Part shown: positions 2,739 through 48,835 of the stretch, piece by piece
Layout of the letters: every line of letters begins with the position of its first letter
Position numbering within the stretch: position 1 is the stretch's first letter
Source of the DNA: Acorus gramineus
Taxonomy: Eukaryota > Streptophyta > Magnoliopsida > Acorales > Acoraceae
DNA length: 64,000 nt
NCBI GenBank assembly: GCA_030737835.1
Contig: JAUJYN010000023.1
Coordinates: 2,234,201 to 2,298,200, forward strand
Reading direction: 5' to 3'
Made by a program: the position numbers and the translations under genes
Notes under the pieces: generated by a model
Database searches by the model: none
The model's input: the letters and a program-made list of their open reading frames with translations, nothing else
Told to the model about the DNA's origin: nothing

Positions 2739-3393
2739 GTGAGTCTCCTTTCCTTCCATTCTTGTTTAGATGCATGTTAGGAGGTGTTTTTGGGTGTGCA
2801 TGGGTGTTGGGGAGTTGGAGGGGGCTGTTGGGGGCGGTTGGAGGTGTTAGGGTTGGCTCGGGTGCATGCGGGCTTAGCGGCGCGCGCAGGCGGGCAGGCG
2901 CAGGCGGCAGGCAAGCAGGCAGGGCAGGCTGGCAGGCGCGCTGTCAGGCGAGCTGCCAGGGAACGCGCGCGTGCGCACAAGCGTGCGCGCGGGTGCTGCG
3001 CAAGGGGCGCAGTACGCAGGGCGAGCGGGCGGTGTGCGGTTGCTGCGCAGGGGGCGCAGTGCGCGCAGGGCGAGCGGGGAGTGCGTGCGGGCGCTGCGCT
3101 GGGGCGCAGTGTGCGCGGGTGCATCCGGGGCTGGACGCGCGGTGAGCACGGCGCGCGCGTGCGTGTGTGTCCGAGCGTGCGGTGTGTCTGGGCGCGCGGG
3201 CTGGGGCGCGGCTGTGCGCCCAGGGCGGGTGGCCGTGCGTATGGCTGCCCGGGGGTTCGGGAGTGAGTCGGGGTACTCGGGCTCGCGTGCGTACGGGCCG
3301 TATGTACGCTTGTCCGAGTGTTGGGTATTTTTTTGTGTATTTTTGTATGTATTTGTGTATTTTACTCACCGTGTTGAATACCCTGTCTTGCAG
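2739..3393 (+). other. Putative LTR leader intron 1 in A1
   Basis: TTGG then GTGAGT forms a good donor at 2739, and CTTGCAG ends at 3393. The 655-bp tract between is extremely GC- and CpG-rich for most of its length. The same donor and acceptor positions recur in other copies. Splicing is inferred from sequence only. Confidence 0.5.
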
Positions 3394-3429
3394 ATCTTGA
3401 CGGACGGTCACGCGACGACCCGGGTATTG
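3394..3429 (+). other. Conserved 36-nt putative microexon, A1
   Basis: It starts ATCTTGACGG, directly after TTGCAG, and is followed directly by GTGAGT. Its length and both splice motifs match the other family A LTRs. Confidence 0.5.
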
Positions 3430-3795
3430 GTGAGTGGGACAATCCAACCCAGTAGGGAGGCGCTATATGCACTTGGGCGTATACCGTCCTCCCCTGGGGA
3501 ACCATAGTTTAATATTAACTTGTATAATATGTAATCTATGCAAGCATGATTAGTATGTAGTATGCATGCCACCCTAGACCTTGTATGTTAGGGACTTGCA
3601 CCCTTAGGATATGTGTAAGAGCCATGCATCCTGACACCATGTTTCATGCTAGGAAAGCCTCGACCTATGCATGTGTCCTATTAGTTTAATTTATTAAATT
3701 AAATGCGAACTTATGGTATTTTGCATGCCTTAGTAAGTATTATAACCTGGTAGTTATTATATATGTTCCCCGCATCTTGGTTATGCGCCCTGGAG

Positions 3796-3811
3796 GAATT
3801 CTGAAGAATTC
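3796..3811 (+). other. GAATTC-N4-GAATTC hairpin block
   Basis: Two GAATTC hexamers are separated by four bases and so can pair. The same block occurs at 8916-8931 and, with small variation, in most family A and B LTRs (for example near 21704, 24336, 26935 and 50683), always after a CGCATC...TTATGCGC stretch. Confidence 0.5.
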
Positions 3812-4251
3812 ATGACATTAGTAGAGTCTCCCTTCTCTGGATTAAGGGGCCTTGCGAAGTCAGCGTTGAGACCCGGGCTAGGGTACTCCGTGTTCCTTGT
3901 TTGGTTGTCAAGATATCCTATATCGGGACCTCATGGTGCCCTCCCAAGGTTTATTTTCTTCAGTTAAGGAATACCGCGGATCCAAGTGGATCGTGTACGT
4001 GTGGATAGGCTGTTTTTGTTCCCTTCGTTGGATCCGTATAGAGACTGCCCCCGCGTTAGACAGGCCTTCCTCACAGAGGGCTCCCATCAGTAGGCACCTC
4101 CTGATTTGGGTTCGGACTGTGCCGAATTGTGGGAGTAGACCAGGCGGCCTACGGAGTGGAGGAGAGACTATCGGTGGACCAAGGGTGATTAATAGCCTAG
4201 TCAGTCCCAATAGACCATGTCACCTTGTTAGTGGGTGAGGGTGAGGGTGTG

Positions 4252-4276
4252 GTGGGTCGGTGATGTTGCGACCCAC
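4252..4276 (+). other. LTR hairpin, arms GTGGGTCG / CGACCCAC
   Basis: A perfect 8-bp stem with a 9-nt loop lies just after a GTGAGGGTGAGGG tract. Equivalent hairpins in other copies keep pairing while changing sequence; see the finding on covariation. Confidence 0.6.
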
Positions 4277-6674
4277 TGGATTGTGCAGTTCCTGCCACTT
4301 TGAGGCTTCGAATAATTAATTGTGGTTAATATAAATTGTGATGCGTGGGTTGTGCTATTCACTGAGCATGTGGCTCACCCCTCGCATATATTTTTTTTCT
4401 CCAGTGTTATCTGAGTCGGATCACCAGGAGGAGCTCCCCGAGGGCTTCAGCAGTAGCGGAGCAGCGCCACATTCCGCGAGTGTTAGAGGCTATCAGCATC
4501 CCTTTTTTATTGTATGTATTGTATTCTGTGCTTGGGCACACGTTTGTATTATATTTGGATGTCATTGTATATATATTGGCTCTCACAAGACAGTTGATTA
4601 TGTATCGAGTCTGTAATATGTTTTTGAATTACAGACTCAGTCTGTTAGCTTCCGCTATTTGTGTATATATCATGTCAGCCTTGCTTTTGTCTGTGTTGTC
4701 ATTTTAGCTGTTGTTTAGAGTATGTTATTGACCTCCTGTTTAGACTATTGATATCATGTATACACTTGCCGCGTCCCGGGGACGGCCGCCCTGGGGCGTG
4801 ACACTAGGACTGCTGACAGCCTTGCACTCGCCACCCTCCGGAAGAACGCTCCACGCCCATAAGACCACGCCACAACAAAGCTCCCGCTCCACGCCCAACA
4901 CTGCCCCTGAAAAGAAACAGTATGCGAGGGGTGAGCTACAAGCTCAGTGAGTGGCTGGAAACCAATCACCATACAACAGTTCAATGCTAACACAATTCCC
5001 TTTCAAGGAAAGACATGGGTGGAAACCCATGGATAACAGGGTCACGCGGCGGTGCGACCAACCTCACCCTAACCCTCACTCCCGAAGGAAGACTCTTGGG
5101 TCTTTTGGGGAGAGACCATACCATTGGTCGAGGTGACCCGGATTACTGGTCCACACAACACTACTGGATCACCGACCTCACCCTCACCCTCACTCCCGGA
5201 GGGAGACTCTTGGGTCTCTTGGGGAGAGACCATACCGTTGGTCGACGAGACCCAGAATTACTGGTCTACACAACACTACTGGATCATCTACATCGAGATA
5301 ACTGCCCAACGATGTCTTTGAACATCGATATGCAACTATGGGAACGGACGAACCACGAATGGGTCACGCGGCGACGTGTCTTCACCTCATCCTCACCCTC
5401 ACCCTTTATAGGTGACATAGGACTTTTGGAGAGATTAGACTCCTCTACACCCTTGGTCCACCGGTAGCCCTTTCCCCGGGTAGTCACTACCTGGTATACT
5501 CCCACGATCAGTACGCTTCCGAACGCCTCGGTGGTACCTACGGATGGGAGCCCTCTGTCAAGACAGCTTTTCCAACGCCGGGAAGTTCCTACATCGGATC
5601 CAACGAAGGGGAGAACGATTCCACGCTCGCAATATCATTCGTTAGCCCTCTCCCGGGTAGCCTCTACCTGGTATACTCCCACGATCAGTACGTTTCCGAA
5701 CGCATCGGTGGTACCTACGGATGGGAGCCCTCTGTCAGGACAGCTTTAACCCGGCCCGCTTCAACACGGACGACATTGGGAGGAAACACTCCATGTTCGC
5801 AAAGCGAACCCAATGAAAAATAACTACTCTCGATAATCACATATCGATGATAGCGAATACTATTGTACTCCCACACGGTTGCGTCGCTCGGACACAAGGG
5901 GGTTGCCTCTGCTCTCATGCAGAAATAATCCCAAGGCACATAACCCAACAGGCGGTTCATATACACGCCTAGCACGGGTAGGCCTAGCTTAATGCCACAA
6001 CTACCGGTTTAACAAAACCGATAAGATAATGAATTCTCCTGAATTCCAAACGAGTGCATCGCTCGGATGCACGGGGCGATTACATCGCTAGCGCTCTAAC
6101 TCATAAGGTACAACCCGACAACGGGTCATACCACGCCTATTTCAGATAGGCCTAATTAGTTTTAACATGCGCATATATTTTATAGGAGAATTTAATCTTA
6201 GTTATGTGCATGAACCATATGCACGATCACATATCAATTAATCATAGGGATGCTCCCTAACATAGATTTACATGGGCGCAACAACTACACCACGCCCTCG
6301 AGTCTTATCGCAAGGGAATATTAGGCAGGTGCCCGTTATTAACCCAAACTTAATCATGCTGGATATTCCAATTAATATGGTGGGAGTAGTATTACAATAC
6401 CTAAGGCATGCCATATTCTATACATCAATACACATTACAGCAATACACGCCCATACTAGAGGGGCGCATGCAACACAATCATTCATACATGGATACAATA
6501 CATGTAATATAAGCCTAGCATGCAAGATATCTAACATATTATAGTCTAAGCATGGTCATACTACTTATCTATACAAGTAGTATAGCTAGGACGCCCCATT
6601 GATGCGCGACGCACGACTACGCGCGTCGAGTGCATCTCAAGAGGGGGGGGGGGGGAATGGACCAAACAACTCAC

Positions 6675-6711
6675 CTCAACCCGGGACCTCGCGCATCCCA
6701 TCCAATGAGAT
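6675..6711 (-). other. Conserved 37-nt putative microexon, B2
   Basis: On the minus strand this block follows CTTGCAG and precedes GTGAGT. It starts ATCTCATTGGATGGG and matches the family B copies at 26007 and 32537. Confidence 0.5.
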
Positions 6712-7023
6712 CTGCAAGGTAAGGGCATCAAATTTGGTGAGTAACAACACATTATAACTGTTATATATGTGTCACTTTTTGGCCTATTGGCAACCATTGG
6801 AGCATTTTTAGCAGTTTTAAAATTTTTAGTGTTTTTCGATCGGAACCGCATAATTTCAGACTGTTAGCTATCGTCTGAGCTAGAGGACTCCGATTGAAAA
6901 TCTAACTGCATATTATGTGTCCTGGTGCCGTTTTAAGCCACTCATGAAAATTTCATCGAATTCCGGCATCGTTTGCAAAAATTTCGCAGTTCCGGGGCGT
7001 ATCCGGGTTTTTAAGTCGCGCAC

Positions 7024-7033
7024 TATATAAAAG
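7024..7033 (+). promoter_or_regulatory. TATA box of the 5' LTR
   Basis: TATATAAAAG lies about 265 bp into the LTR, followed by a CT-rich pyrimidine patch at about 7075-7100, as expected for a plant core promoter. The same position is TATATAAG at 38437, TATATATAAG at 47418 and TATAAATA at 48677 and 54733 in other copies. Confidence 0.65.
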
Positions 7034-7158
7034 GAATCAAAAATATCTAAACACTATTCATCATCCCTACGACTTGCTCTCTCTCTCTCCTCTCCTCCGT
7101 TTTTCTTCCGTTTGAGCCCCCTACACCCCTCAAAACCAAAAACCTAAAGCACGGGAAT

Positions 7159-7179
7159 GTAGATCGGGTCCCGATCTAC
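7159..7179 (+). other. Leader inverted repeat (GTAGATCGG / CCGATCTAC)
   Basis: Nine-base arms surround GTC. In other alpha copies the arms extend to eleven perfect bases, GTGTAGATCGG / CCGATCTACAC (38571-38595, 47552-47576, 48811-48835, 54862-54886). A weaker form lies at 20020-20043. Confidence 0.65.
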
Positions 7180-7348
7180 GCTCCGGTGTCTTCAAATCCG
7201 AGTTCCGACGATCCTAGCCTCCCCGACCTCCCCTTTTCGTCCTCTGATTTGGCCCATTTCGAAGGCCAAGCTAGATCGGGGCGTGAGAAGGCTTTTGGGA
7301 AGGGTTTCGGCGCGTGGAGAGCCACCGGACGCCCCTTCCTCCCCCTCG

Positions 7349-8393
7349 GTAAGCTTCTTTCCCTCTCTTTTCTTGTCTAGATGATTGCTAGGGAGGGGTT
7401 TTGTGTTTGGGGGGGGGGTCGGCGGCAGTGGGGGTCGTCGGAGGGTGGTCGGAGGTGGTTGGAGGTGGTCGGGGCAGTGGGAGGGGTGGTTGGAGGTGCT
7501 CGACAGGAGGGGCACTGTCCCGGGCAGCAGGCAGCGGCGGCAGCAGCCAGGCCGCGCGTAGGCTGGGCGCGTGCGGGGATGCGCGTGCGCGCGCTGGCGT
7601 GCGTGCGCGCGGCATGCGCGCTGGTGTGCGCGGTCTGGGGCTGGCAGTGCTGGTCGTGCTGGGTATGCTGGAGGGGCTGGCAGTGCTGGCGAGTGGGCTG
7701 GTGGCCTCGGGTAGCCCAGGCGCAGGGGCTGGCAAGGCGCGCGCGTGCGTGCGCGCGAGCGTGCGCGCGGGCGTGCGCTCGGGAAGAGCGGGAGGCCGGC
7801 TAGGAGCTGCGCGCGAGGTGCTGGTCGCGCTGGTCTGCGCGCGAGGTGCTGGTCTCGCTGTTCTGGGCGCGAGGAGCTGGTCGCGCGGGGTGCTAGTCGG
7901 CGGACAGCGGCGGTGCGTGCGCGAGGTGCAGGCGGACAGTGGTGGTGCCGTGCGCGAGGTGGTGGCCGAGGTGTGCGCGAGGAGCGGTGGGGCAGGCGAG
8001 GTGTGCGCGAGGTGCTGGTCGAGCAGGGCAGTGCGCGCGAGGCGCGGCGAGGCGGCGGAGGCGCGCGCGGGGTGCGCGCGGGAAGGTGCTGCGCGCGGGG
8101 GCCGTGCGGGGTGCTCGCGGGGCGGCGCGAGTGTTTGGGGCGCTCGGGCTACTGCTGCGGGGCGCAGTGGATGCGCGGAGCCCGGGGGCGGTGCGGCGGC
8201 GTGTCCAGGCGGCGGGCAGGGGCCGGCGGAGCGCGGGATGCGCGGGCTGAAGCGCGGCGGTGCACCCGGGGGGTCGGGGGGCGTGCGGGTGGTTGCCGGG
8301 GGTGTTAGGTGTTTGTTGTGGGTTTTGGGTATTTATTGTGTATTATTGGGTATTTGTGGATTTATTCTAACCAGTTAATACCCTGTCTTGCAG
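7349..8393 (+). other. Putative LTR leader intron 1 (GC-rich)
   Basis: CCTCG then GTAAGC forms a donor at 7349, and CTTGCAG ends at 8393. About 900 bp of the 1045-bp span is low-complexity GC- and CpG-rich sequence, open in many frames by composition alone. No protein is claimed for it. Confidence 0.5.
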
Positions 8394-8429
8394 ATCCCGA
8401 CGGACGGTCGCGCGTCGACCCGATTTCCG
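8394..8429 (+). other. Conserved 36-nt putative microexon
   Basis: It starts ATCCCGACGG, is preceded by TTGCAG and is followed by GTGAGT. A second putative intron would run 8430-9484 to the acceptor TTTTCAG. Confidence 0.5.
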
Positions 8430-9313
8430 GTGAGTGGGACAACCCAACCCAGTGTGGGAGGCGCTACATGCTTTGGGCGTGTACCGTCCTCCCCTGGGGC
8501 TTATAGTTAGTATTAACTGCTGATGTAATCCATGTATGCATGATGTGTGTGTAGAATTGCATGCCACCCTAGATTGTGTGATAGGGACTTGCACCCTTAG
8601 GATTGTGCATGAGCCATGCATCCTGCCTCCTCGCTATCATGCTAGGAAAGCCCGACCTCTACATGCGTCCTATTAGTTTGATTTGTTTACTTAAATGCTA
8701 GCATAAGTGAGATTTGCATGCTTAGGGAATATATAGGGAGGGGCCTTGCGAGGTTAACATTGAGACCCGGGTTAGGGTACTCCGTGTTCCTTGTTTGGTT
8801 GTCGGGATGTCCTACATCGGGACCTCAGGTTACCCTCCCAGGGTCTTTCCCTATTCACCCCTGTATTATGATTAATAAATGCATGTTCCCCGCATACTGG
8901 TTATGCGCGCTGGTGGAATTCTGAGGAATTCAAGACATTAGGATTGTAGAGATGTGCTGTCAGCGGATCCGAGTGGATCATATGCGATGGATAGGCTGTT
9001 CTGTTCCCTTCGTTGGATCCGTGTAGAGACTACCTCAGCGTTAGACAGGTTGTCCCGTGCAGGGGCTCCCATTAGTAGGCGCCTCCTGATTGGAAGGACT
9101 GCGCTGAACATGGGAGTGGCCAAACAACCACGGAGTGAGGAGAGACTATCGGTGGACCAAGGGTAACCAACAGCCTAGTCAGTCCCAAGAGCCTAGGTCA
9201 CCTGTTGAGAGGTGAGGGTGAGGGTATGGTGGGCCGGCGATGCGACGACCCACAGGATTATGAATGGATGATTATCAACCCGCTAAGTCCCAACATCCTA
9301 GGTCACCTGTTGA

Positions 9314-9334
9314 GGGTGAGGGTGAGGGTGAGGG
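9314..9334 (+). other. G-quadruplex-prone GGGTGA repeat
   Basis: Four GGG runs are spaced by TGA, meeting the usual four-run G-quadruplex pattern. An equivalent run is at 22103-22123 in A3. Shorter versions occur in all family A, B and D LTRs. Confidence 0.6.
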
Positions 9335-9337
9335 TAT

Positions 9338-9361
9338 GGGGTTCGGCGATGAACGAACCCC
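9338..9361 (+). other. LTR hairpin, arms GGGGTTCG / CGAACCCC
   Basis: A perfect 8-bp stem directly follows the GGGTGA tract. Relative to 4252-4276, stem positions 2 and 5 have both changed on both arms, so pairing is kept. Confidence 0.6.
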
Positions 9362-9874
9362 CGGATTGTGATATTATGCCACTTGTGGCTTATGAATTGC
9401 TTAAATGTGGTTAATATGAACTGTATGCATGGGTTGTGCTATTCACTGAGCGTGTGGCTCACCCCTCGCATATTGTCTTTTCAGTGATCTCTGAGGGAGG
9501 AGCTTCCCGAGCGACTACACCGGCAGAGGGCAGCGCCGCGTCCCACGAGTTTTGAGGCCATCAGCACCCTTCTTTCTGTTGTATGTATATGTTCTGTGCT
9601 TGGGCACTTAGTTGGATTATATTTGGATTTTGTTGTGTATATATATGATGTTGGCTCTCACAGGACTTATGATTATGTATCGAGTCTGTAGTATGTTTTG
9701 ACTACAGACTCAGTCTTTTAGCTTCCGCATTTGGTGTATATATTATGTCAGCCCTGCTTTTATCTGTGTTGTCATTTTAGTGATTGTTGTGGTATATTGT
9801 TGGTTTCCTGTTACTGATATCATATATACACTTGCCGCGTCCCGGGGACGGCCGCCCTGGGGCGTGACAAAAGT

Positions 9875-9989: not shown

Positions 9990-11285
9990 ATGCCTCCTCG
10001 CAGAGGACGACGCGGACGTGGTCCCTCTCGACCCTTGGAGGTCTCCGGACCTGCCAGAGTCGAGGATGCTATTGGTGAGTCCTCAGCCGAGAGGTCAGGA
10101 CCAGCGCAGGAGCCTCCTGCCTGGGAGCGCGCGTTTGCGCGGATAGCGGATATGGTGGAGACCCAGACGAGGATGTTGGCAGATCAGGCGCGGGAGATTC
10201 GGGAGCTGCGGGCAGCCCGCGAGGCAGTACCGCAGGTTCCCTTGGCGGCAGATCCGCCTGTAGTGCCTGATACACCCCCAGTCCCCGTGGTGGAGATTCC
10301 GGCGGCCAGAGCTCAGGGTCCTCAGGAGAGGGAGGCAGGGCTAGAGGCTGCAGCGAGGGTCCAGCAGAGTGGACTCTCAGCCTTTCTGAAGCTCCACCCT
10401 CCCGAGTTCCGAGGACAGACGGAGGACCCCCTTGCCCCCGAGAGATGGTTGATGGAGGTGGATACCATCTTCTCGACGATGCTTTGCACAGATCGCCAGA
10501 GGGTCTCCCTGGCTGCGTTTATGCTGAAGGGTAGCGCCGCCGAGTGGTGGGCTACTAGATCAGTGGATATCCCAGAGGGGCTGGAGCAGCTCACATGGGC
10601 GGGATTCAGGGGATATTTCTTGGAGGAGTATTTCCCCTTCTCGACGCGACAGATAGTGGAGCGGGAGTTTGAGCAGCTGACTCAGGGCACTATGTCCGTC
10701 GCTGACTACTCCACGCGGTTCACGAGGCTGTCCAGGTTCGCTCCAGCTCTGGCGATGGACGAGGTGTCGAGGTGCCGTCGGTTCGAGCTCGGTCTGAGCA
10801 ATGCCATCCGAGTGCACGTCACCTCCCATGCTTTCACGAGGTTCTCCGACTTGGTCTCGCGGGCGAAGACAGTCGAGAGAGACCTCGGGATCCAGGTGCG
10901 GGCTCCGACCCCGTCGACAGACCAGAGGCCACCCAGAGGTCAGGACAGAGGGCAGCGGAAGAAGAAGAGGGCCCGCTTCGAGCAGTCAGCGGCTCCCTCT
11001 CTTCCAGCAGATGTGGTGCCAGCGCGAGGCCCAGCACCCATCGCAGCCGTGCCGGTCCAGTCGAGGCGACCAGAGACGAGGCGCTGTTATCACTGTCAGC
11101 GCGTCGGGCATATTCTGTATAATTGCCCCGACGCAGGCCGACCCAGAGTGATGCCTCAGCAGCAGCAGCAGCAGTTGCAGCGGCAGCCGTTCCAGCAGCC
11201 GTTCCAGCAGCAGCGCCAGCAGCAGCAGCCTCAGCGCCAGCCAGCCTCAGCGTCAGCAGCAGCAGCCACAGGGTGGCCGTGCTGA
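9990..11285 (+). CDS. gag: Retroelement Gag (Tekay lineage)
   Basis: An open frame of 431 codons starts with ATG about 120 bp past the LTR end. The N-terminus is Arg/Gly-rich (MPPRRGRRGRGPSR), then comes a Pro/Val-rich linker, then the retrotransposon Gag core at about residues 125-300 (FLKLHPPEFRGQ, AAEWWATRS). A CCHC zinc knuckle lies at about residues 366-379 (CYHCQRVGHILYNC), followed by a Gln-rich low-complexity tail. Gag forms the cytoplasmic particle and the knuckle binds element RNA. A related gag lies at 51774 in A8. Assignment to Gag is secure; lineage rests on the neighbouring pol and LTR. Confidence 0.88.
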   Translation: MPPRRGRRGRGPSRPLEVSGPARVEDAIGESSAERSGPAQEPPAWERAFARIADMVETQTRMLADQAREIRELRAAREAVPQVPLAADPPVVPDTPPVPVVEIPAARAQGPQEREAGLEAAARVQQSGLSAFLKLHPPEFRGQTEDPLAPERWLMEVDTIFSTMLCTDRQRVSLAAFMLKGSAAEWWATRSVDIPEGLEQLTWAGFRGYFLEEYFPFSTRQIVEREFEQLTQGTMSVADYSTRFTRLSRFAPALAMDEVSRCRRFELGLSNAIRVHVTSHAFTRFSDLVSRAKTVERDLGIQVRAPTPSTDQRPPRGQDRGQRKKKRARFEQSAAPSLPADVVPARGPAPIAAVPVQSRRPETRRCYHCQRVGHILYNCPDAGRPRVMPQQQQQQLQRQPFQQPFQQQRQQQQPQRQPASASAAAATGWPC

Positions 11286-11354: not shown

Positions 11355-14300
11355 GTGGCAGCGCTTTCGGCAGAGGAGGCCCAGGCATCCGGCAGCGTGG
11401 TTAGAGGTACTGTTCAGATCTCCCAGCTTCCTGCTTATGTGCTATTTGATTCCGGAGCCACCCACTCGTTCGTGTCTCCCGCTTTCGCGAGACGGACGGG
11501 TGTGGCGTCCGCTCCTCTAGATGCTGTGTTAGAGGTAGCATTGCCCGTGGGAGACCGGATTCTCCTTAGTTCGTGTACCGAGGGTGCACGGTGGAGATCG
11601 CGGATCATGAGTTTCCGGTAGAGCTGGTGGAGCTCGCGATGTCGGATTTTGATGCCATCCTGGGGATGGATTGGCTTGCAGCTAGTCATGCCAGCATCGA
11701 CTGTTTCGCCAAGTCGGTGTCGTTCCACCTTCCTGGTCGGAGGTCTTTCCAGTACGTGGGCGATCGAGACGTAGCTCCTTTGGGGTTCGTGTCGTCCATG
11801 CAGGCGTGGAGACTCCTTCAGGGTGGATGCGAGGGCTTTCTGGCTTATATTGCTCTGGAGGATGCACCGCTGCGGGCAGATATCAGTCAGACTCCAGTCG
11901 TGGCAGAGTTTCCCGAGGTTTTCCCCGACGATCTTCCGGGATTACCGCCGGACCGCGCGATTGAGTTTGAGATCAATCTGCTTCCGGGGACCGAGCCAGT
12001 TTCGAGGGCTCCGTACCGGATGGCTCCCGCAGAGCTGAGGGTGCTGAAGGAGCAGTTGGAGGAGTTGCTGGAGAAGGGCTTCGCACGTCCGAGTGTGTCT
12101 CCGTGGGGAGCCCCTGTCCTGTTCGTCCGGAAGAAGGACGGTTCACTGCGGCTGTGTATTGATTACAGGCAGTTGAATAAGCGGACAGTGAAGAACAAGT
12201 ACCCGTTGCCGCGGATCGACGATCTGTTTGACCAGCTTCAGGGAGCGTGTGTCTTTTCCAAGATCGATCTCCGCTCGGGGTACTACCAGTTGAAGATCCG
12301 GGAGTCAGATATTCCGAAGACGGCCTTTCGCACCCGGTACGGGCACTACGAGTTCAGAGTACTGCCTTTCGGGTTGACGAACGCGCCGGCGGCCTTCATG
12401 GATCTGATGAACCGGGTATTTCGACCCTTCCTCGACTCCTTTGTGGTAGTATTCATCGATGATATATTGGTGTACTCGAGGAGTCTGGAGGAGCACGCTC
12501 ACCACCTCCGCACTGTTTTGGAGACTCTGGCTGGACATCAGTTGTTCGCCAAGTTCAGCAAGTGCGAGTTCTGGTTGGAGCGGATGGCCTTTCTGGGCCA
12601 TGTGATTTCCGGTGAGGGTATAGCTGTGGACCCGGAGAAGACGCTCGCCGTGTCGAATTGGCGTCGACCGTCGAACCCCACAGAGATTCGTAGCTTCTTG
12701 GGCTTGGCGGGTTATTATAGGAGGTTTGTGGAGGGTTTCTCCAAGATAGCCGTTCCTCTTACCCGCCTCACTCGGAAAGACGTTCGGTTCGAGTGGTCCC
12801 CTTCTTGCGAGGAGAGCTTCCAGGAGCTGAAGCGTAGGCTCACCTCAGCGCCAGTTCTTACCCTTCCATCTGGGAGTGGTGGGTTCGCAGTGTATACAGA
12901 TGCATCGCAGTTGGGTGTGGGTTGCGTCCTGATGCAGCACGGTAAGGTGGTGGCTTACGCGTCTCGTCAGTTGAAGCCCCATGAGCAGAACTACCCCACC
13001 CATGACCTTGAGTTGGCTGCGATTATTTGCGCTGAAGATGTGGAGGCATTATCTCTACGGAGAGGAGTTCGAGCTCTTTACAGATCATAAGAGCTTGACG
13101 TATCTGCAGTCTCAGCCGGAGCTCAACATGCGACAGAGGCGTTGGGTTGAGTTCCTGACAGACTACGACTGTGACATCGCTTACCATCCGGGTAAGGCGA
13201 ATGTCGTTGCAGATGCGCTCAGTAGACAGCCCCTGGGCATGGCCGCCCACATGGCTGTCCGTCGTTGGAGGCTTCTGGAGGAGGCCGCTTGCTGGATCAG
13301 TGTTCGGGAGACCCCTGCGGGTGGCTTTCTGGCCAGGCTGGTGGTGCAGCCGGTTCTTCTCGATGAGATCCGCACGGCTCAGGCTCAGGACCCGCATTTC
13401 ATAGTCCTTTCTGAGGGCGTCGCCCGGGGCGAGCGTCAGGACTACCAGATTCGTGCAGACGGGATCCTGAGATTCAGAGGCCGAGTGTGCATCCCCGACG
13501 ACGCAGAGCTGAGGCGGAAGATTCTGGACGAGGCCCATCGCTCGAGGTACACAGTGCACCCTGGAGGCACGAAGATGTACAGGGGCCTTCGTCGCGGCTA
13601 CTGGTGGCGCGGGATGAAGACAGATATTGCCAGATTTGTTGCCCGATGCCTAGTATGCCAGCAGGTGAAGTCGGAGCATCAGCGCCCTGCGGGGAAGCTG
13701 CAGTCCATTGAGATCCCTCAGTGGAAGTGGGAGCAGATCACTATGGACTTCGTCTCGGGTTTGCCGAGGTCACGCTCGGGTCGCGATGCCATCTGGGTGA
13801 TCGTCGACCGGCTGACGAAGTCTGCTCATTTCCTCCCCATCCGACTCACCGATTCTCTGGACACCCTGGCGCAGTTATTCGTCTCCGAGATTGTCCGACT
13901 CCATGGCACTCCAGTCAGTATCATCTCTGATCGAGACGCGCGTTTCACTTCGAGGTTCTGGCGTAGCCTCCAGCACGCCCTTGGTACGAACCTCCACTTC
14001 AGTACCGCGTTTCATCCTCAGACGGACGGCCAGTCGGAGAGGACGATCCAGACCCTTGAGGACATGCTGCGGGCCTGTGTGCTCGATTTCGGGGGCAGTT
14101 GGGAGAGGCACCTTCCGTTGGTGGAGTTTGCCTACAACAACAGCTATCATTCGAGCATCCGGATGGCTCCCTACGAGGCACTTTATGGCCGCAGCTGCAG
14201 GTCCCCCCTGTGTTGGGATGAGGTCGGAGAGCGCCAGCTAGAGGGACCAGAGATCATTCACCAGACCTCCGAGATGGTGAAGACGATCCGCGAGCGTATC

Positions 14301-14785
14301 CGAGTCGCTCAGAGTCGTCAGAAGAGCTACGCCGACCGCCGTCGCCGTGAGCTCTCCTTCGAGGTCGGTGATCATGTGTTCTTGAAGGTGTCCCCGATGA
14401 AGGGCATCTTCCGATTCGGTGTGCGGGGCAAGCTGAGTCCGCGTTTCATTGGGCCTTTCCTCATACTCGAGCGAGTTGGAGAGGTGGCCTATCGCATAGC
14501 TCTGCCCCCACAGTTGGCTCAGGCCCATGACGTCTTCCACGTCTCGCAGCTGAGGCGATACGTCCACGATCCTGCCCACATCATCCGTTCGAGCCGCTCG
14601 TCTTCGAGCCGGACTTGTCTTTCGTGGAGCAGCCGATTGAGATCATGGACCGCCGCGAGAAGAGGCTCCGCACCAGGACCGTCCAGCTGGTCAAGGTGCG
14701 ATGGCAGCACCGTTCCGGTGCCGAGGCCACCTGGGAGCTCGAGGACGCCATGCGTGACGCGTATCCGCATCTTTTCCCTTCTTAG
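11355..14785 (+). mobile_element. pol: pol region: protease, reverse transcriptase, RNase H, integrase, chromodomain-like tail
   Basis: Domains appear in Ty3 order. Protease has DSGATHSF at about 11448. Reverse transcriptase has the FIDD catalytic motif at 12452-12463 and nearby text [11 protein letters not shown] and [13 protein letters not shown]. RNase H has YTDAS at about 12893. The integrase zinc region is about 13536-13665 (H-H then CLVC), and its catalytic core runs about 13737-14150 ([17 protein letters not shown]). The last 200 bp look like a chromodomain tail, which in chromoviruses binds marked histones. Roughly three breaks are present, so this is a fossil. Integrase after RNase H rules out Copia. 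Confidence 0.88.
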
Positions 14786-14817
14786 ATGTACTTGTATTTA
14801 TTTTGAGGACAAAATTT

Positions 14818-14833
14818 CCTAAGGGGGGGAGAA
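14818..14833 (+). other. Polypurine tract
   Basis: A run of A and G (AAGGGGGGGAGAA core) abuts the 3' LTR start at 14834. It would be the plus-strand DNA primer in reverse transcription. Confidence 0.8.
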
Positions 14834-15150
14834 TGTTATATATGTGTCACTTTTTGGCCTATTGGCAATCATTGGAGCATTTTTAGCAGTTTTAAAATTT
14901 TTATGTTTTTCGATCGGAACCGCATAATTTCAGACTGTTAGCTATCGTCTGAGCTAGAGGACTCCGATTGAAAATCTAACTGCATATTATGTGTCCTGGT
15001 GCCATTTTAAGCCACTCATGAAAATTTCATCGAATTCCGGCATCGTTTGCAAAAATTTCGCAGTTCCGGGGCGTATCCGGGTTTTTAAGTTGCGCACTAT
15101 ATAAAAGGAATCAAAAATATCTAACCACTATTCATCATCCCTACGACTTG
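14834..15150 (+). repeat. 3' LTR of the 6759 element, first 317 bp only
   Basis: It is collinear with 6759-7078 and then stops abruptly at CGACTTGCT. The sequence to the right belongs to a Harbinger transposon that itself lacks its left end, so one deletion probably removed both. Confidence 0.85.
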
Positions 15151-15179
15151 CTTCCCAATACATAATAAATGCAGAATGT

Positions 15180-16244: not shown

Positions 16245-17499
16245 ATGAGACCAGAATATGAGATCCTAGTTATTATGGTGATGTATTTCATACAGGATCA
16301 TCTTGATCAACATTGGGCACGAAGAGTAGTTCATGATTCTAGTTTGAGTGGGGCTGAGTATATGAGGGCGATACTTGATGGACACCCACGCCCGTGTCTT
16401 GATTTATTTCGCATGTGACAACATGTGTTCAAAGAATTGGTTAAATTAATCCGAGATGAAGGATGGTTGAAAGACACAAATAACATGTTCATTTTAGAAC
16501 AAGTGGGGATATTCCTCCTGATTGTTGGACATAACGCAAGGAACAAAGTATGCCAGGACCGTTTCCAACACTCCGGTGAGACCATATCTCGATACTTCAG
16601 GAAGGTCCTAAAGGCTTGCTTGAAACTGAGCGAACGAAATATCCAACCACCCGATTTATCCCAAACACCTAACCAAATTTTAAACAGTTCAAGATTTTAC
16701 CCCGCGTTCAAGGTATGATGAAGAGGTTTAAAAAGGTTTGCAATAACATGTTATTATGAAATTAAATCTCTACATCATTAGTGAAAGAGAACTCATTTGG
16801 GTTATTGGAATGTTTTTATAGGATTGCATCGGAGCGCTAGATGGAACTCTTGTGCATGCAATCATTGCTAGGGATAACCAAGTGCCATACAGGGGTCGTA
16901 AGGGGGATTGCATGCAAAATGTGCTTGCTGTCTGCTCTTTTGACATGCTTTTCACTTATGTTATGGCCGGGTGGGAAGGAACAGCCCATGACTCGCGGAT
17001 CCTCTCTGAGACCATCCGAGACCCTTCCAAACTGTTTCCAATGCCCCCCCTGAGAAAATATTATCTAGTTGATGCTGGATATACAAATAAAAGGGGATTT
17101 CTTGCACCTTACCGTAACGTGAGGTATTGGTTGGGAGATTATAGGGGGCGTTCAACGCCACAAAATAAAGAGGAGGTGTTCAATCAATTGCACTCATCAT
17201 TGAGGAACGTAATCGAACGAACATTTGGTGTGTGGAAGGCACGGTTCCCCATCTTGAAGAAGATGGCATCCTATCCATTCGATATCCAAGTACGCATAGT
17301 TCCCGCAACTATGGCTATTCACAATTTCATTAGAAAGCAAAATCTAGTTGATAGCTTATTCGAGCAGTTTCAGAATACCACTGTTGATGAGGATCGTGCA
17401 ATTGAGCAGTTATACCCTACTGTCCGCCCCGACAACGATCAACTAGAAATGAATCAAACGCGGGATCAGATTGCCAATATGCTAATGTCTAGGCGTTGA
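16245..17499 (+). pseudogene. PIF/Harbinger DDE transposase, two exons, one in-frame stop
   Basis: Exon 1 is 16245-16712 and exon 2 is 16822-17499, joined in phase at FYPAFK | DCIGALDGT. The intron (16713-16821) has GTATGA and TTTTATAG borders, and an intron here is usual in plant copies. The catalytic residues are visible: first Asp in GALDGT (16840-16842), second in YYLVDAGY (about 17073), and Glu in VIERTFGVWK (about 17214). The total is about 380 residues, normal for the family. A TGA at 16416-16418 lies after the FRM motif, where a Ser codon is usual, so the copy is probably inactive. The ATG at 16245 was chosen because an acceptor-like TTTTAG lies just upstream; an extra 5' exon is possible. 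Confidence 0.85.
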
Positions 17500-18807: not shown

Positions 18808-20730
18808 TTAGATTTTCAATAAGAGTACTCCAACTCCCGCAAGTGGCTAAAAGCCAAAATTTTAGCGACTCCGATCAAAAAATTAAAAGGCCCTGAATGA
18901 CCCAGATGTGACCAAGGCTTAACCGAAATGGCTCCAAATAACACAGGCATAACATCCAGGTTTGGCCGTTACTGGTTTCGGTGGGTGAGATATTTTCGTG
19001 TGTGTGGTGCTTCTCCGCACGCTTCCCAATAAAGCAAAAATAAGTGGTTGAGTGAGGGTGAACCTAACCCTAACCTCACCACCCCCTTATGGTCACCCCA
19101 AAACACTATTTGGACATGGAAATGACCATTTTGCCCTCTCTCTCTCTCCCCCTCTCCCAACTCATGGATCTCTCTTTCTCTCTGTTATATATGTGTCACT
19201 TTTTGCCTTCTGGTAACCATTGGGACATTCTGGCAGTTTTTCAGTTTTTTTCATTTTTCGATCGGAACCGCTAAAATTTTGGACTGTTAGCTATCATCCT
19301 GAGTTTGAGGACTCCGATTGAAAATCTAACTGCATATTATGTGTCCTGGTGCCATTTCAAGCCACTCACGAAAATTTCATCGAATTCCGGTAACGTTTCA
19401 GAATTTCGCAGTTCCGAAGCGTATCCGGGTTTTGACCGAGCGAGAAGTCATTGGGAGACTTGACTTGGTCAATGTGGGCCCTTGACTTGGTCAATTGATT
19501 TTGGATTTTAGTGTGGTTGGGTTGACTAGGGTCAAATCTCACCTAAGTGCATTTAAACCTAATCTAACCTAGTTTAACCTAATCTTTTTTTCACTAAGTG
19601 GTGAGTGTGTGAGGTGTGTGTGTTATATATGTGTCACTTTTTGGCCTATTGGCAATCTTTGGAGCATTTTTAGCAGTTTTAAAATTTTTAGGGTTTTTCG
19701 ATCGGAACCGCGTAATTTCAGACTGTTAGCTATCGTCTGAGCTAGAGGACTCCGATTGAAAATCTAACTGCATATTATGTGTCCTGGTGCCATTTTAAGC
19801 CACTCATGAAAATTTCATCGAATTCTGGCATCGTTTGCAAAAATTTCGCAGTTCCGGGGCGTATCCGGGTTTTTAAGTCGCGCTCTACTTAAAAGGAATT
19901 AAAAATATCTCGTCACTATTCATCATCTTCCCGACTAGCTCTCTCTCTCTCCTCTCCTCCGATTTTCTTCCGTTCGAGCCCCCTACACCCCTCAAAACCA
20001 AAAACCTAAAGCACGGGAAGTGTAGATCGGGTCCCGATTTACGCTCCGGTGTCTTCAAATCCAAATTCCGACGATCCTAGCCTCCCCGACCTCCCCTCTC
20101 TCTCCTCTGTTTCGAGCCAAATCGAGGGCCGTGATAGATCGGGGCGTGAGAAGGCTTGTGGGAAGGGTTTCGGCGCGTGGAGATCCACCGGACACCTCCT
20201 CCTCCCCTCGGTAAGCCTCTTTTCCCTCTCATTTCTTGTCTAGATGATTGCTAGGGGAGGGTTTTGTGGTTGGGAGGTGGTTGGTGGCGGTGGGGGTCGT
20301 CGGAGGGTGGTCGGAGGTGGTTGGAAGTGGTCGGGGCAGTGGGAGGGGTGGTTGGAGGCGCTCGGCGGGCTGGGGGACTGTCCCGGGCAGCAGGGAGCAG
20401 CGGCAGCGGCCAGGCAGCGCGCAGGCCGGGCGCGCGCGGGCATGCGCGCGTGCGTGCGCGGGTGTGCGTGCGCGCAGCGTGTGCGTGGGTGTGCGCGGGT
20501 CTGGTGCGTGGGGGCTGGTCGTGCTGGGCGCGCTGGATGGGCTGGGGCCTCAGGCAGCACAGGCAACGAGCAGGAGCCGGCTGGGCGTGCGCGCGTGCGT
20601 ACGCGCGAGCGTGCGCGCGGGCGTGCGCTCGGGGGGAGCTGGACGCGGCGGTGCGAGGCGTGCGAGCTGCTCGGGTGGTGCTGTGCGCGAGGGGCTGATG
20701 GCGAGCTGGTCTGGGCGCTGGTCTGGGCGC

Positions 20731-20876
20731 GCGCGGAGGTCCTGGCCGAGGTGCTGGACGCGCGAGGTGCGCGCGGAGGTGCTGGCGGAGGTGCTGGACG
20801 CGCGAGGTGCGCGCGGAGGTGCTGGCGGAGGTGCTGGACGCGCGAGGTGCGCGCGGAGGTGCTGGCGGAGGTGCTG
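20731..20876 (+). repeat. 40-bp minisatellite in A3
   Basis: About four copies start GCGCGGAGGT at 20731, 20771, 20811 and 20851, inside the GC-rich tract. They are specific to this LTR copy. Confidence 0.85.
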
Positions 20877-21186
20877 AGCGGAGCGCTCGGGTGCTGGGGC
20901 GCGCGCGGAGGAGGCGCGGGGCGAGGAGCCGTCCGCGAGGCGTGCGCGGGGCGTGGAGCGTGCGCAAGGCGTGCGGGGCGCGTGCGGGCTGCCGCGGCTG
21001 GGCTCGGTGGACGCGCGGGGCCCCGGGCGGTGCGCGGCGGCGCGTCCGGGCGGTCGGGTGGCCGTGCGGGTGGTGGCCGGCCGTGCGGGTGGTTGCCGGG
21101 GGGGTGTTGGATGTTTGTTTGAGTGTGTTATGTATTTTTGGGATAACTGTGGATTTATTCTAACCAGTTAATACCTTGTCTTGCAG

Positions 21187-21222
21187 ATCTCGACGGACGG
21201 TCGCGCGTCGACCCGATTCCCG
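21187..21222 (+). other. Conserved 36-nt putative microexon, A3
   Basis: It starts ATCTCGACGG, is preceded by TTGCAG and is followed by GTGAGT. Confidence 0.5.
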
Positions 21223-23815
21223 GTGAGTGGGACAACCCAACCCAGTTTGGGAGGCGCTACATGCTTTGGGCGTGTACCGCCCTCCCCTGGGGCTTATAGT
21301 TAGTATTAACTGCTTTGATGTAATCCATGTATGCATGATGTGTGTGTAGAATTGCATGCCACCCTAGATTGTGTGATAGGGACTTGTACCCTTAGGATTG
21401 TGCATGAGCCATGCATCCTGCCTCCCTGTTATCATGCTAGGAAAGCCCGACCTGTGCATGCGTCCTATTAGTTTGGTTTATTTAATTAAATGCGAACTGT
21501 AATAATAGATAGCATGCTTAGGGAATATAAGGGGGGGCCTTGCGAGGTTAACATTGAGACCCGGGTTAGGGTACTCCGTGTTCCTCGTTTGGTTGTCGGA
21601 TGTCCTACATCGGGACCTCAGGTTACCCTCCCAAGGTCTCTATTTCCTCTGAATCATGATTAGAAAATGCATGTTCCCCGCATCCTGGTTATGCGCGCTG
21701 GTGGAATTCTGAGGAATTCGAGACATTAGAGTCTTAGAGATGTGCTGTCAGCGGATCCGATTGGATCATATGCGATGGATAGGCTGTTCTGTTCCCCTCG
21801 TCGGATCCGTGTAGAGACTACCTCGGCGTTAGACAGGTTGTCCCGTGCAGGGGCTCCCACTAGTAGGCGCCTCCTGACTTGGAAGGACTGCGCTGAACAT
21901 GGGAGTGGCCAAACAACCGCGGAGTGAGGAGAGACTATCGGTGGACCAAGGGTAACCAACAGCCTAGTCAGTCCCAAGAGCCTAGGTCACCTGTTGAGAG
22001 GTGAGGGTGAGGGTATGGTGGGCCGGCGATGCGACGACCCACAGGTTTATGAATGGATGATTATCAACCCGCTAAGTCCCAACATCCTAGGTCACCTGTT
22101 GAGGGTGAGGGTGAGGGTGAGGGTATGGAGTTCGGCGATGAACGAACCCCCGGATTGGTGATGTTATGCCACTTGTGGCTTATGAATTGATTAAATGTGG
22201 TTAATATGACTGTATGCATGGGTTGTGCTATTCACTGAGCGTGTGGCTCACCCCTCGCATATTGCCTTTTCAGTGATCTCTGAGGGAGGAGCTTCCCGAG
22301 CGACTACACCGGCAGAGGGCAGCGCCGCGTCCCACGAGTTTTGAGGCCATCAGCACCCTTCTTTCTGTTGTATGTATATGTTCTGTGCTTGGGCACTTAG
22401 TTGGATTATATTTGGATTTTGTTGTGTATATGTAGGACATGTTGGCTCTCACAGGACTTATGATTATGTATCGAGTCTGTAGTATGTTTTTGACTACAGA
22501 CTCAGTCTTTTAGCTTCTGCACTCGGTGTATATATTATGTCAGCCCTGCTTTTATCTGTGTGTCATTTTAGTGATTGTTTGTGGTTTATTATTGATTTCC
22601 TGTCACTGATATCATATATACACTTGCCGCGTCCCGGGGACGGCCGCCCTGGGGCGTGACAGTGTGTGTGGTCCCCTTTAAGTCCACGCCTAGGACTAGG
22701 ATTTTCCCCTATTCATCATCTTCTCCACTCAATCTCTCTCTCCTCCTCTCTTTAAATCCCCCATATGATCTAGCTAGAGGGGTTAAAATAAAAAACCCTA
22801 AGAAGAGAAAGGATAGGTATTGTCCCGATCTGTCTTCCGGTGGTCTCGGATTCGAATTCCCTCATGTGTGACCCCTTCTCATGGTCTCTTTTCTCCTCTG
22901 ATTTCAGCCCTCTTAGGCTGAGTTAAAGGCTCGGTGGTGGTGTCTTGGTGGTGGTATTTCGGTGCGCGAAGAGCACCCGATCTCCTTCCCTTCCCTTCCT
23001 CTCCTTTGGGTGAGTTTCCTTTCCTTCCATTTCTTGTCTAGATGTTTGTTTAGGTGTGTTTGTGGGAGTGAAAGATATGTTTGGTGGTTTGGGGGGCTGT
23101 TGGGGGCTGTTGGAGGGCTGAGAGGGGTGGTAGAGCCGGCTTGGGCAGTGCGGGCTCCTTGGCGCAGGCAGGCAGGCAGTGCGGGCTCCTCGCGCGCATG
23201 TAGGCGGGCAGGCTGGCAGGCACTGGGCGCGTGCTGCCGAGCGCGCTAGGCGCGGGCTGTCGGGCGTGCGCGTGGGCGCGTGCGGGTGCTGCGCAGGGGG
23301 CGCAGTACGTGGGTTGAGCGGGTTACATGCGGGTGCTGCGCAGGGGGCGCAGTGCGCGCAGGGCCAGCGGGGAGTGCATGCGGGGCGCTGTGTCGGGGCG
23401 CAGTGCGGGCGAGTGTGCGCTCGAGGCTCTGCGCTAGGTCGCAGTGCGCGCGGGTGCATCCGGGGCAGGACGCGCGGTGCGCACGGGCGCGCGTGCGTGC
23501 GTCCGAGCGTACGGTGTGTCTGGCCTCGCGGGCTGGGCGCGACGACGTGTCTGGGCGTGCGGCAGGGGTTCGGCAGCGTGTCTGGGCGTGCGGGCAGGGG
23601 CTCGGCAGTGCGTCTGGGCGCGCGGGCTGGGGCGCGGCTATGCGCCCGGGGCGGGTGGCCGTGCGGAGGGTTGCCCGGGGTTTCGGGTGAGTCGGGGTGC
23701 TCGGACTCGCGTGCGTACGGGCCGTATGTACGCTTGTCCGAGTGTTGGGTATTTTTAGTGTATTTTTGTATGTATTTGTGTATTTTACTCACCGTGTTAA
23801 ATACCTGTCTTGCAG

Positions 23816-23851
23816 ATCTTGACGGACGGTCACGCGACGACCTGGGTATTG
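23816..23851 (+). other. Conserved 36-nt putative microexon, A2
   Basis: It starts ATCTTGACGG and lies between TTGCAG and GTGAGT, as in A1. Confidence 0.5.
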
Positions 23852-26006: not shown

Positions 26007-26043
26007 ATCTCGTCGGATGGGATGCGCGAGGTCCCGGGTTGAG
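26007..26043 (+). other. Conserved 37-nt putative microexon, B1 5' LTR
   Basis: It starts ATCTCGTCGGATGGG, between TTGCAG and GTGAGT. The upstream donor is CTAG then GTGAGC at 25482, and the downstream acceptor TTTTCAG ends at 28088. Confidence 0.5.
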
Positions 26044-31235: not shown

Positions 31236-34200
31236 TGTTATGCCTGTGTCATTTGGAGCCATTTCGGTTAAGCCTTGGTCACATCTGGGTCATTCAGGGC
31301 CTTTTCTTTTTTTCGATCGGAGTCGCTAAAATTTTGGCTTTTAGCCATCTGCGGGAGTTAGAGCACTCTGATTGGAAATCTAACTGCATATTATGGGTCC
31401 TGGTACCGTTTAGTACTACCCATAAAAATTTCATTGACTTCCGGTAACGTTCTGAAAGATATACAGTTCCGAATAGCATCCAGGTTTGGCCATTACTGGG
31501 TTTCGGTGGATGAGATATTTTCGCGTGTGTGATGCTTCTCCGCATGCTTCCCAATAAAGCAAAAATAAGTGGTTGAGTGAGGGTGAGCCTAACCCTAACC
31601 TCACCACCCCCTTATGGTCACCCCAAAACACTATTTGGGCATGGAAATGACCATTTTGCCCTCTCTCTCTCTCCCCTTCTCTCCCAACTCGTGGATCTCT
31701 CTTTCTCTCCCTCTCGTGGTCTCTTTTTCCTCTCTTTGTGTGTGGAGAAGGAGGAGGAAGAATCAAAGGAAGGAGAAGGTGAAGGAGGAAGTACAAGGTG
31801 TGTGTGTTTGTGCATTTGTTGTGGTTTCTCCTCTCTCAAGCACCCTCTCATGTCTTCCCCCCCCCCCCCCCGATTTGCAGCCAAAGAAGGCTGAGGAGGG
31901 CTGAGGAGGTGGTGGTAGTGGTGGTGGTGGTTGAGGTGGTTGCGGGTGCATCGAGGGCCCCTGAATCTCCCCCATTCATTCCCCCTCCCTAGGTGAGCTC
32001 TTCCCCTTCTTTTCTTGGTTTTTTCATGGCTTAGGGGTTGTGGGGAAGTCATGCATGCTAGGTAGTTGGTTTAGGGTGAGTGAGAAGTGTGGGGGAGGGG
32101 TTAAAGGGGTTAAAAGGGTGCTGGGCGCGCGCGCGGGTCTGTCCGCGCGCGCAGAGGGGCCGTGGCAGGCGCGTGCGCATGCACGCAGAAGCTGCGCGCG
32201 GGTGCGCGCGGACGTTGGCAGCCAGCGGAATGCCCGCAGGGCGTGCATGCGGGTGCGCGTGAGCGTGCGCGCGCGCGGGGCAGTGCGTCTGGGCGTGCGC
32301 CTAGGCATGCGGCAGGGTGCCAGTGCGCGCGCGCGCGTGCGTGCGTGTGCTGGGGCATGCGCGGGGCTGCCCAGGGTCTCGGGTAGGTGCTGGGGCACTT
32401 GGGCAGGCGTACGTACGCGCGTGCTCACGTGCGTGCGAGCCCGTATGCGTGCATGACTAAGTCTTAGGCATTTCTAGTAATTTCTAAGTGTTATAATGTG
32501 TTGTTACTCACCAAATTTGATGCCCTTACCTTGCAGATCTCGTCGGATGGGATGCGCGAGGTCCCGGGTTGAGGTGAGTGGTTTGGTCCAATCCCCCCCC
32601 CCCCCTCTCGAGATGCGCTCGACGCGCGTAGTCGTGCGTCGCGCATCGATGGGGCGTCCTAGCTATACTACTTGTGTAGATAAGTAGTATGACCATGCTT
32701 AGACTATAATATGTTAGATATCTTGCATGCTAGGCTTATATTACATGTATTGTATCCATGTATGAATGATTGTGTTGCATGCGCCCCTCTAGTATGGGCA
32801 TGTATTGCTGTAATGTGTATTGATGTATAGAATATGGCATGCCTTAGGTAGTATTGTAATACTACTCCCACCATATTAATTGGAATATCCAGCATGATTA
32901 AGTCAGGTTTAATAACGAGCACCTGCCTAATATTCCCTTGCGATAAGACTCGAGGGCGTGGTGTAGTTGTTGCGCCCATGCTAATGGGGCAAAGCTATGA
33001 CCGACTTCATGAGATGATGATCTCTCTCGCCCTCTCCCTCTGCACGGACTGAGTAAGTAGATGCGATTTCCTACTCGACTCAGGTTCGTTTGGAATATTG
33101 GCATGCACCTGTTAGTGCGCGAGATCGCGCTTGACCCTTACCTTTTAAGTTGGTGATATCCAACGCATGCTTAAGTTAGGCCTTGTGTGCCTATGTGATT
33201 AATGACCATGTATGCATGTTGTATGATTTATTATGATGTAAATCTATGATTAGGGAGTATCCCTATGATTAATTTATATGTGATTGTGCATATAGTTCAT
33301 GCACATAACTAAGATTAAATTCTCCTATAAAATATATGCGCATGTTAAAACTAATTAGGCCTATCTGAAATAGGCGTGGGTATGACCCGTTGTCGGGTTG
33401 TACCTTATTAGTCAGAGTGCTAGCGATGTAATCGCCCCCGTGCATCCGAGCGATGCACTCGTTTGGAATTCAGGAGAATTCATTATCTTATCGGTTTTGT
33501 TAAACCGATAGTTCTGGCATTAAGCTAGGCCTACCCGTGCTAGGCGTGTATATGAACCGCCTGTTGGGTTATGTGCCCTAGGATTATTTCTGCGTGAGAG
33601 CAGAGGCAACCCCCTTGTGTTCGAGCGACGCAAACGTGTGGGAGCACAATAGTATTCGATATCATCGATATGTGATTATCGAGAGTAGTTGTTTTTCCAT
33701 TGGGTTCGCTTTGCGAACATGGAGTGTTTCCTCCCAATGTTGTCCGTGTTGAAGCGGGCCGGGTTAAAGCTGTCCTGACAGAGGGCTCCCATCCGTAGGT
33801 ACCACCGATGCGTTCAGAAACGTACTGATCGTGGGAGTATACCAGGTAAAGGCTACCCGGGAGAGGGCTAACGAATGATATTGCGAGCGTGGAATCGTTC
33901 TCCCCTTCGTTGGATCAGATGTAGGAACTTCCCGGCGTTGGAAAAGCTGTCCTGACAGAGGGCTCCCATCCGTAGGTACCACCGAGGCGTTCGGAAGCGT
34001 ACTGATCGTGGGAGTATACCAGGTAGTGACTACCCGGGGAAAGGGCTACCGGTGGACCAAGGGTGTAGAGGAGTCTAATCTCTCCAAAAGTCCTGTGTCA
34101 CTTGTAAAGGGTGAGGGTGAGGATGAGGTGAAGACATGTCGCCGCGTGACCCATTCGTGGTTCGTCCGTTCCCATAGTTGTTGGGTCCGGTTGCGTATCG

Positions 34201-37122: not shown

Positions 37123-37161
37123 CATTCTACCCGGGACCTCGCGCATCCCATCCGACGAGAT
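37123..37161 (-). other. Conserved 39-nt putative microexon, D
   Basis: On the minus strand it lies between CTTGCAG and GTGAGT and starts ATCTCGTCGGATGGG, like family B. Confidence 0.5.
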
Positions 37162-39974: not shown

Positions 39975-40010
39975 ATCTAGACGGACGGTCGCGCGACGAC
40001 CCCGATTCCG
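39975..40010 (+). other. Conserved 36-nt putative microexon, A4
   Basis: It starts ATCTAGACGG and lies between TTGCAG and GTGAGT. Confidence 0.5.
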
Positions 40011-48810: not shown

Positions 48811-48835
48811 GTGTAGATCGGGTCCCGATCTACAC
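48811..48835 (+). other. Perfect leader inverted repeat, A8 5' LTR
   Basis: Same eleven-base arms as 38571-38595; repeated in the 3' LTR at 54862-54886. Confidence 0.7.

Follow-up and report, generated by a model that had tools for sequence, protein, structure and literature searches.

Genomic copies that precisely lack an intron point to splicing within the long terminal repeats of Ty3/gypsy retrotransposons in Acorus gramineus

The long terminal repeats (LTRs) of a group of Ty3/gypsy elements in Acorus gramineus house, wholly inside the LTR, what genomic copies lacking it show to be a working spliceosomal intron (intron 1), removed precisely at its GT..AG boundaries. By the same genomic evidence, RNA from which intron 1 had been spliced was packaged, reverse transcribed and integrated, apparently many times. 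Exact junctions, exon ends that follow the donor of each subfamily, whole insertions and repeated changes of intron state on trees together imply that spliced RNA served as the template for reverse transcription, leaving new elements without intron 1 in both LTRs. Taken jointly, we consider it very probable that the LTR leader contains at least one working intron; on this reading, splicing would divide a single transcript between mRNA and genome.

The analysed window is the whole 64,000-nt stretch at positions 2,234,201–2,298,200 (forward strand) of contig JAUJYN010000023.1 in assembly GCA_030737835.1, and pattern searches covered the complete 398.6-Mb genome. NAM transcription factors, a land-plant family, account for 126 matches in this genome and for none in 14 control genomes. 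The window is crowded with LTRs of 2.5–3.7 kb each; the features discussed below are collected in Table 1. As a model copy, we use the A-type 5' LTR of a pol-less element whose 3' LTR lies at 54469–57614, with the start of exon 1 placed from a TATA motif ~264 nt into the LTR; the sequence directly downstream, GTTGGTATCAGAGCC, is taken by us to be a primer-binding site matching plant initiator tRNA-Met. Twenty nucleotides past the 3' LTR of this element there is an LTR-like copy (57634–59926) without an LTR start, 89% identical to 49321–51655. A second A-type element, beginning with the LTR at 6759, has gag, protease, reverse transcriptase, RNase H and integrase in the Ty3/gypsy order; its two overlapping pol frames were searched against Pfam separately, with no frame mended. 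Further Ty3/gypsy features, namely paired TG..CA LTRs, a primer site and a 5-bp target duplication, are present in the intron-less insertions L031 and L040 described below. A Chromo domain, as expected at the integrase C terminus of chromoviruses such as Tekay/Del, was absent at E values up to 10 from the last 165 aa of one copy, which matched only SH3_Tf2-1 and the integrase p58 C-terminal domain. The start of a 3' LTR at 14834–15152 is 98% like 6759–7078, with a match only ~320 nt long, and at 16822–17496 there is a transposase frame (DDE_Tnp_4, Plant_tran), presumably PIF/Harbinger-like.

Table 1. Coordinates of leader features, LTRs and open frames in the 64,000-nt window.
Feature	Position	Strand	Remarks
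First A-type copy, intron-1 donor to intron-2 end	2739-4404	+	TTGG/GTGAGT subgroup; locus of the first-pass annotation
First copy, intron 1	2739-3393	+	
First copy, block	3394-3429	+	
First copy, proposed intron 2	3430-4404	+	
B-type block	6675-6711	-	37 nt
Second A-type LTR	6759-9869	+	
Second LTR, exon 1	7055-7348	+	
Second LTR, intron 1	7349-8393	+	
Second LTR, block	8394-8429	+	
Second LTR, proposed intron 2	8430-9484	+	
Second LTR, proposed exon 3	9485-9580	+	
Gag-proximal acceptor of same element	9981	+	
gag of same element	9990-11282	+	Pfam: Retrotrans_gag, Ty3_capsid
pol frame 1 of same element	11570-13087	+	PR-RT-RH; Pfam: RVP_2, RVT_1, RT_RNaseH
pol frame 2 of same element	12975-14819	+	RH-INT; RNase H end, Integrase_H2C2, rve (rve under cut-off)
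Block of LTR 19621-22661	21187-21222	+	36 nt
Block	23816-23851	+	36 nt
B-type block	26007-26043	+	37 nt; exon 1 end 25481 (CTAG/GTGAGC); exon 3 acceptor before 28089; LTR end 28471; gag acceptor before 28578
B-type block	32537-32573	+	37 nt; exon 1 end 31992
B/D-type block	37123-37161	-	39 nt
Block of LTR beginning 38173	39975-40010	+	36 nt
Block	43112-43147	-	36 nt
Model A-type LTR	48413-51654	+	TGTTATAT start, GTGACA end, then GTTGGTATCAGAGCC
Model leader exon 1	48709-49000	+	donor CTCG/GTAAGC; 3' end confirmed by same-type intron-less genomic copies
Model intron 1	49001-49968	+	GC 71%; ACTTACC branch-like motif and CTTGCAG at 3' end
Model block	49969-50004	+	36 nt; 5' end confirmed by junction copies; GTGAGT at 3' end conserved only
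Model proposed intron 2	50005-51248	+	conserved GTGAGT donor, pyrimidine-CAG acceptor
Model proposed exon 3	51249-51367	+	without ATG; then GTATGTA
Primer-binding site region	51655-51672	+	GTTGGTATCAGAGCC, directly 3' of model LTR
Acceptor-like motif	51755-51764	+	TTTTCTTAG; 9 nt upstream of gag ATG; putative splice acceptor
gag-like open frame, start	51774-52415	+	MPPRRGRRGRG...; without Pfam match
Block	55927-55961	+	35 nt
Block	58232-58267	+	36 nt

Thirteen blocks of 35–39 nt occur in the long LTRs of the window, each with TTGCAG upstream and GTGAGT downstream. The first-pass annotation had listed 12 of these, all recovered here at the coordinates it gave (low coordinates for the three on the minus strand), and had missed the one at 55927. 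It assigned 36 nt to A-type blocks and 37 or 39 nt to the B and D types, which holds for all four B/D-type and eight of the nine A-type blocks, the ninth having 35 nt; an ATCT start, also claimed for all, applies everywhere except at 8394, where the block begins ATCC. Lengths of 35, 36, 37 or 39 nt support its view that the block is non-coding. Sequence and length differ between A and B blocks, while the plan is common to both, and an independent parse of the leader in seven window copies arrived at exactly the junctions previously suggested (7348/8394, 8429/9485, 49000/49969 and 50004/51249). In the model copy, the block is the start of a second leader exon, and we propose that it may be a microexon. 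A role for the block as a hairpin or dimerisation signal (a stem of the GGTCG-CGCGA-CGACC type) was rejected, as the folding of six blocks was not better than that of shuffles (z −0.14 to 1.11).

Splice-site motifs no better kept than their surroundings had been named beforehand as a result that would speak against splicing; the opposite was observed. In 31 intron-retaining copies (24 A, 7 B) selected without regard to their flanks, acceptor positions −6 to −1 were on average 98% conserved, versus 57% at −60 to −31, and the block donor hexamer 99%, versus 65% at +31 to +60; a CTNAY branch-like motif stood at the expected branch-point place in 30 of the 31. Copies L001–L008 were excluded from this set since the pattern used to find them included TTGCAG, and retention was called by script as the presence of TTGCAG within one change. 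Genome-wide, TTGCAG followed by the block occurs at 3298 sites of type A (exact) and 3692 of type B (≤3 mismatches). Some properties of the leader count against the main reading. Intron 1 is GC-rich (63–73%, versus 49–56% in exon 1 of the parsed copies), whereas plant introns are usually U-rich. In five A copies with a full leader, ATGs number zero or one in the exons and are many in the introns, but scarcity of upstream ATGs was discarded as a mark of selected exons: counts do not fall below those of dinucleotide shuffles, and B exons and the B block, which holds two, carry ATGs.

Reverse transcription of RNA already spliced at intron 1 should leave genomic LTRs in which exon 1 abuts the block precisely. 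This junction was found at 33 places for type A (≤3 mismatches, 13 of them exact) and 48 for type B, 0.5–1.2 kb of intervening sequence being gone, while the reversed junction pattern, used as a control, had no match genome-wide for either type. Among the places read in context, the join was exact to the base in 24/24 of type A and 20/21 of type B (44 of 45 overall); the other nine A and 27 B matches are known from the matched letters alone. The single exception, L064, was picked via the junction pattern and dropped from the set. It retains intron 1 with a broken acceptor (L064:202–726), only the CAG having been deleted, and is the only scanned copy to fail the TTGCAG criterion with its intron kept. 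Other LTRs in the genome lack the intron of the model type, the missing segment matching it base for base. Furthermore, the exon ends of intron-less copies track the donor of their own subfamily: retained copies have CTCG/GTAAGC, CTTG/GTAAGC, TTGG/GTGAGT, CTAG/GTGAGC and CAAG/GTGAGC, and the ends found joined to ATCT are CTCG, CTTG, TTGG, CTAG and CAAG, with TTTG in L067 and L068. Set against the retained sites, loss of intron 1 has affected ~1% of sites (33 versus 3298 exact for A, 48 versus 3692 for B), a rough figure given that the stringencies differ.

Downstream of the block, the evidence is of another kind. A pyrimidine-CAG acceptor for intron 2 is present in 47/47 A copies and GTATGTA follows exon 3 in 45/47, and TCTTAG/G lies 9 nt 5' of the gag ATG at all 10 informative 5' ends; on the basis of this motif conservation we propose introns 2 and 3 as candidate splicing units. 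Searches for A copies without intron 2 (block joined to the 51249-type sequence) gave zero matches genome-wide versus about 20 expected at the intron-1 rate, with both pattern halves present in 29 of the 47 copies reaching exon 3. The equivalent B search also gave zero, which carries little weight as only 2/6 B copies have both halves. The claim of the first-pass annotation that the leader is spliced through a microexon is thus upheld for intron 1, where 44 of 45 joins are exact and donors are tracked, and finds no intron-2-less copy to match it for the onward join. Skipping from exon 1 to exon 3 produced a single match (L029), which proved to be the usual acceptor region carrying a single-base change.

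We tentatively suggest that the leader could be a switch of three introns and four exons, with intron 1 freely removed and the block donor committing an RNA to become gag mRNA. The GTGAGT 3' of the block would act as a second, regulated donor, and RNAs using it would be joined, directly or via exon 3, to the TCTTAG acceptor before the gag ATG. Such a join would remove the LTR end along with the primer-binding site, leaving RNAs that could be translated and not reverse transcribed, while RNAs keeping both would still serve as genomes, with intron 1 either spliced out or retained. Because splicing would take away the primer-binding site, mRNAs made from the second donor would leave no genomic copies, and this one assumption would account for intron 1 being lost at ~1% of sites and intron 2 never in the searches made. 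Block-to-gag and exon 3-to-gag junctions were each found zero times genome-wide, a result that the switch allows and that lends it no support. The missing intron-2-less copies would equally be explained if a packaging signal lay within intron 2.

Two narrower accounts of the region beyond intron 1 compete with such a switch. It is possible, though doubtful, that intron 1 alone is spliced, the GTGAGT not serving as a donor in vivo and the block being no more than the opening stretch of a long second leader exon. Sequence 3' of the block is indeed kept at all 45 junctions read, with GTGAGT either intact or altered by a point change or small indel, in keeping with the lack of intron-2-less copies; against this stand the near-complete conservation of the hexamer relative to its flanks, common to A and B, and the conserved downstream acceptors. 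The plan laid out in the first-pass annotation, in which exon 1, the microexon and the exon 3 at 51249 are joined and the rest of the leader is kept together with the primer site, seems unlikely to us. Its donor and acceptor are conserved, but with the primer site kept, intron-2-less copies would be due, and the A-type search found none of the roughly 20; the plan could still be accommodated by a packaging signal located in intron 2.

The losses of intron 1 extend to complete insertions. Five fetched loci (L031, L037, L040, L044 and L046) have two intron-less junctions in the same orientation, 5.1–7.5 kb apart. In L040 (LTR pair 98.4% identical, target duplication TTATG, K2P 0.0135) and L031 (96.6%, ACCAT, K2P 0.0222), both LTRs are without intron 1 and the primer site lies 3' of the 5' LTR. 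At an often used substitution rate of 1.3e-8 per site per year, these insertions would date to about 0.5 and 0.9 million years ago, respectively. Like the model element (48413–57614), both have internal regions of ~2.8–2.9 kb with gag-like frames and without a long pol frame, and all three were probably mobilised in trans. The blocks of the two L031 LTRs (1529–1564 and 6652–6687) show three differences in their last part, though the LTRs are 96.6% alike, perhaps through recombination or conversion.

Phylogenies place changes of intron state in several lineages. A tree of exon 1 with 76 rows (43 intron-less, 33 retained) requires at least 14 changes of intron state, of which at least 10 are forced by well-supported (starred) branches; it leaves out L008_665 and W_43874 (misplaced ends), L038 (a duplicate of L037), segments <250 nt and L009–L028. 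A second tree, built from the block plus the beginning of intron 2 and limited to A-type copies (24 intron-less, 31 retained rows), requires at least 11, with nine forced by starred branches. The forced changes fall in A, in the TTGG subgroup of A and in B. These are changes and not proven separate losses, and part of them could reflect recombination between RNAs. Intron state is more clustered on both trees than in label shuffles, and one intron-less cluster, on an unstarred branch, comprises eight rows from five loci, so that clustered intron-less copies may have kept transposing. Such clustering would fit an origin of the intron-less subfamilies in only one or two old splicing accidents, followed by amplification and recombination, with splicing itself rare and outside the life cycle; the spread of the nine to ten or more forced changes over A, its TTGG subgroup and B renders this improbable.

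Searches without fixed endpoints bear on the remaining alternative. With 0–30 free bases allowed between the end of exon 1 and the block, 13 of 15 matches read CTTG/ATCT and two, one base longer, read TTGG/ATCT; the latter probably belong to the TTGG subgroup, whose context was seen in L048 and L049. With 18–48 bases left free on the donor side, 14/14 matches end at the donor, 13 at the same spacing and one with an exon-1 base missing. Random deletion would have scattered the endpoints over these ranges, and the lack of scatter argues against it. Ordinary DNA deletion, common in LTRs and exemplified by the 3 nt lost from the L064 acceptor, is therefore scarcely credible as the source of the intron-less copies, whose endpoints are exact in all but that one case and match subfamily donors, and whose loss is common to the paired LTRs of one element.

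Leader splicing that separates mRNA from genome has parallels elsewhere. In foamy viruses, as far as the accounts available to us go, a leader donor splits spliced mRNA from genomic RNA, much as the block donor might here. HTLV and BLV have splice donors in R. The first retroviral intron, in the available descriptions, leaves the LTR, whereas both donor and acceptor of intron 1 lie inside one LTR. There is a likeness to the spliced integrated retrotransposed elements (SpIREs) of human LINE-1, which, in the available portion of their description, arise through the splicing out of an intron in the 5' leader and retrotransposition of the resulting RNA, giving precise intron-less copies (PMC5860796); a GT..AG intron precisely absent from the integrated copy is likewise what we observe. 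The Acorus copies work like SpIREs without being such, as their host is an LTR element and not LINE-1; LINE-1 has no LTR, and here the intron disappears from both LTRs while the upstream part of the LTR is spared. That text describes SpIREs as dead ends (PMC5860796), whereas some intron-less LTR copies cluster as if they had gone on amplifying.

Among plant elements, the barley Copia element BARE1 is, in the sections of its report at hand, likewise a case in which splicing separates translated from genomic RNA, as it may do here; its intron has 104 nt and lies at the end of gag rather than in the LTR, and its authors were unable to amplify DNA copies of the spliced RNA, whereas the Acorus genome holds spliced copies (PMC3735527). 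Ogre and EVADE also have functional introns, which the parts of the literature available place between or within coding regions and not in the LTR (PMC12786077, PMC3735527). A sunflower nanopore survey, in its accessible portion, reports spliced RNAs of LTR elements, the Tekay clade contributing none (PMC7730604). No account of an intron lying entirely within an LTR turned up among titles and abstract starts retrieved from the open-licence literature, a weak negative. That such splicing would be unusual for a plant Ty3 element, as remarked in the first-pass annotation, agrees with the part of a 2025 review according to which plant LTR elements are generally without introns, and the LTR introns add to the short list of intron-bearing plant LTR elements given there (PMC12786077).

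The available part of the BARE study raises directly the unsettled matter of how LTR retrotransposons allot one transcript to both translation and reverse transcription (PMC3735527). The LTRs analysed here supply a countable genomic record, with thousands of intron-retaining sites versus 81 junction matches, from which the extent to which spliced RNA leaks into replication can be measured by sequence alone. They also provide an intron that lies wholly within an LTR and is GC-rich yet recognised, and indicate that long LTRs can owe part of their length to the leader introns they house. If the proposed switch is true, the repeated losses of intron 1 would register in the genome the rate at which an LTR retrotransposon packages partly spliced RNA, and intron-less lineages would show that intron 1 is dispensable for transposition.
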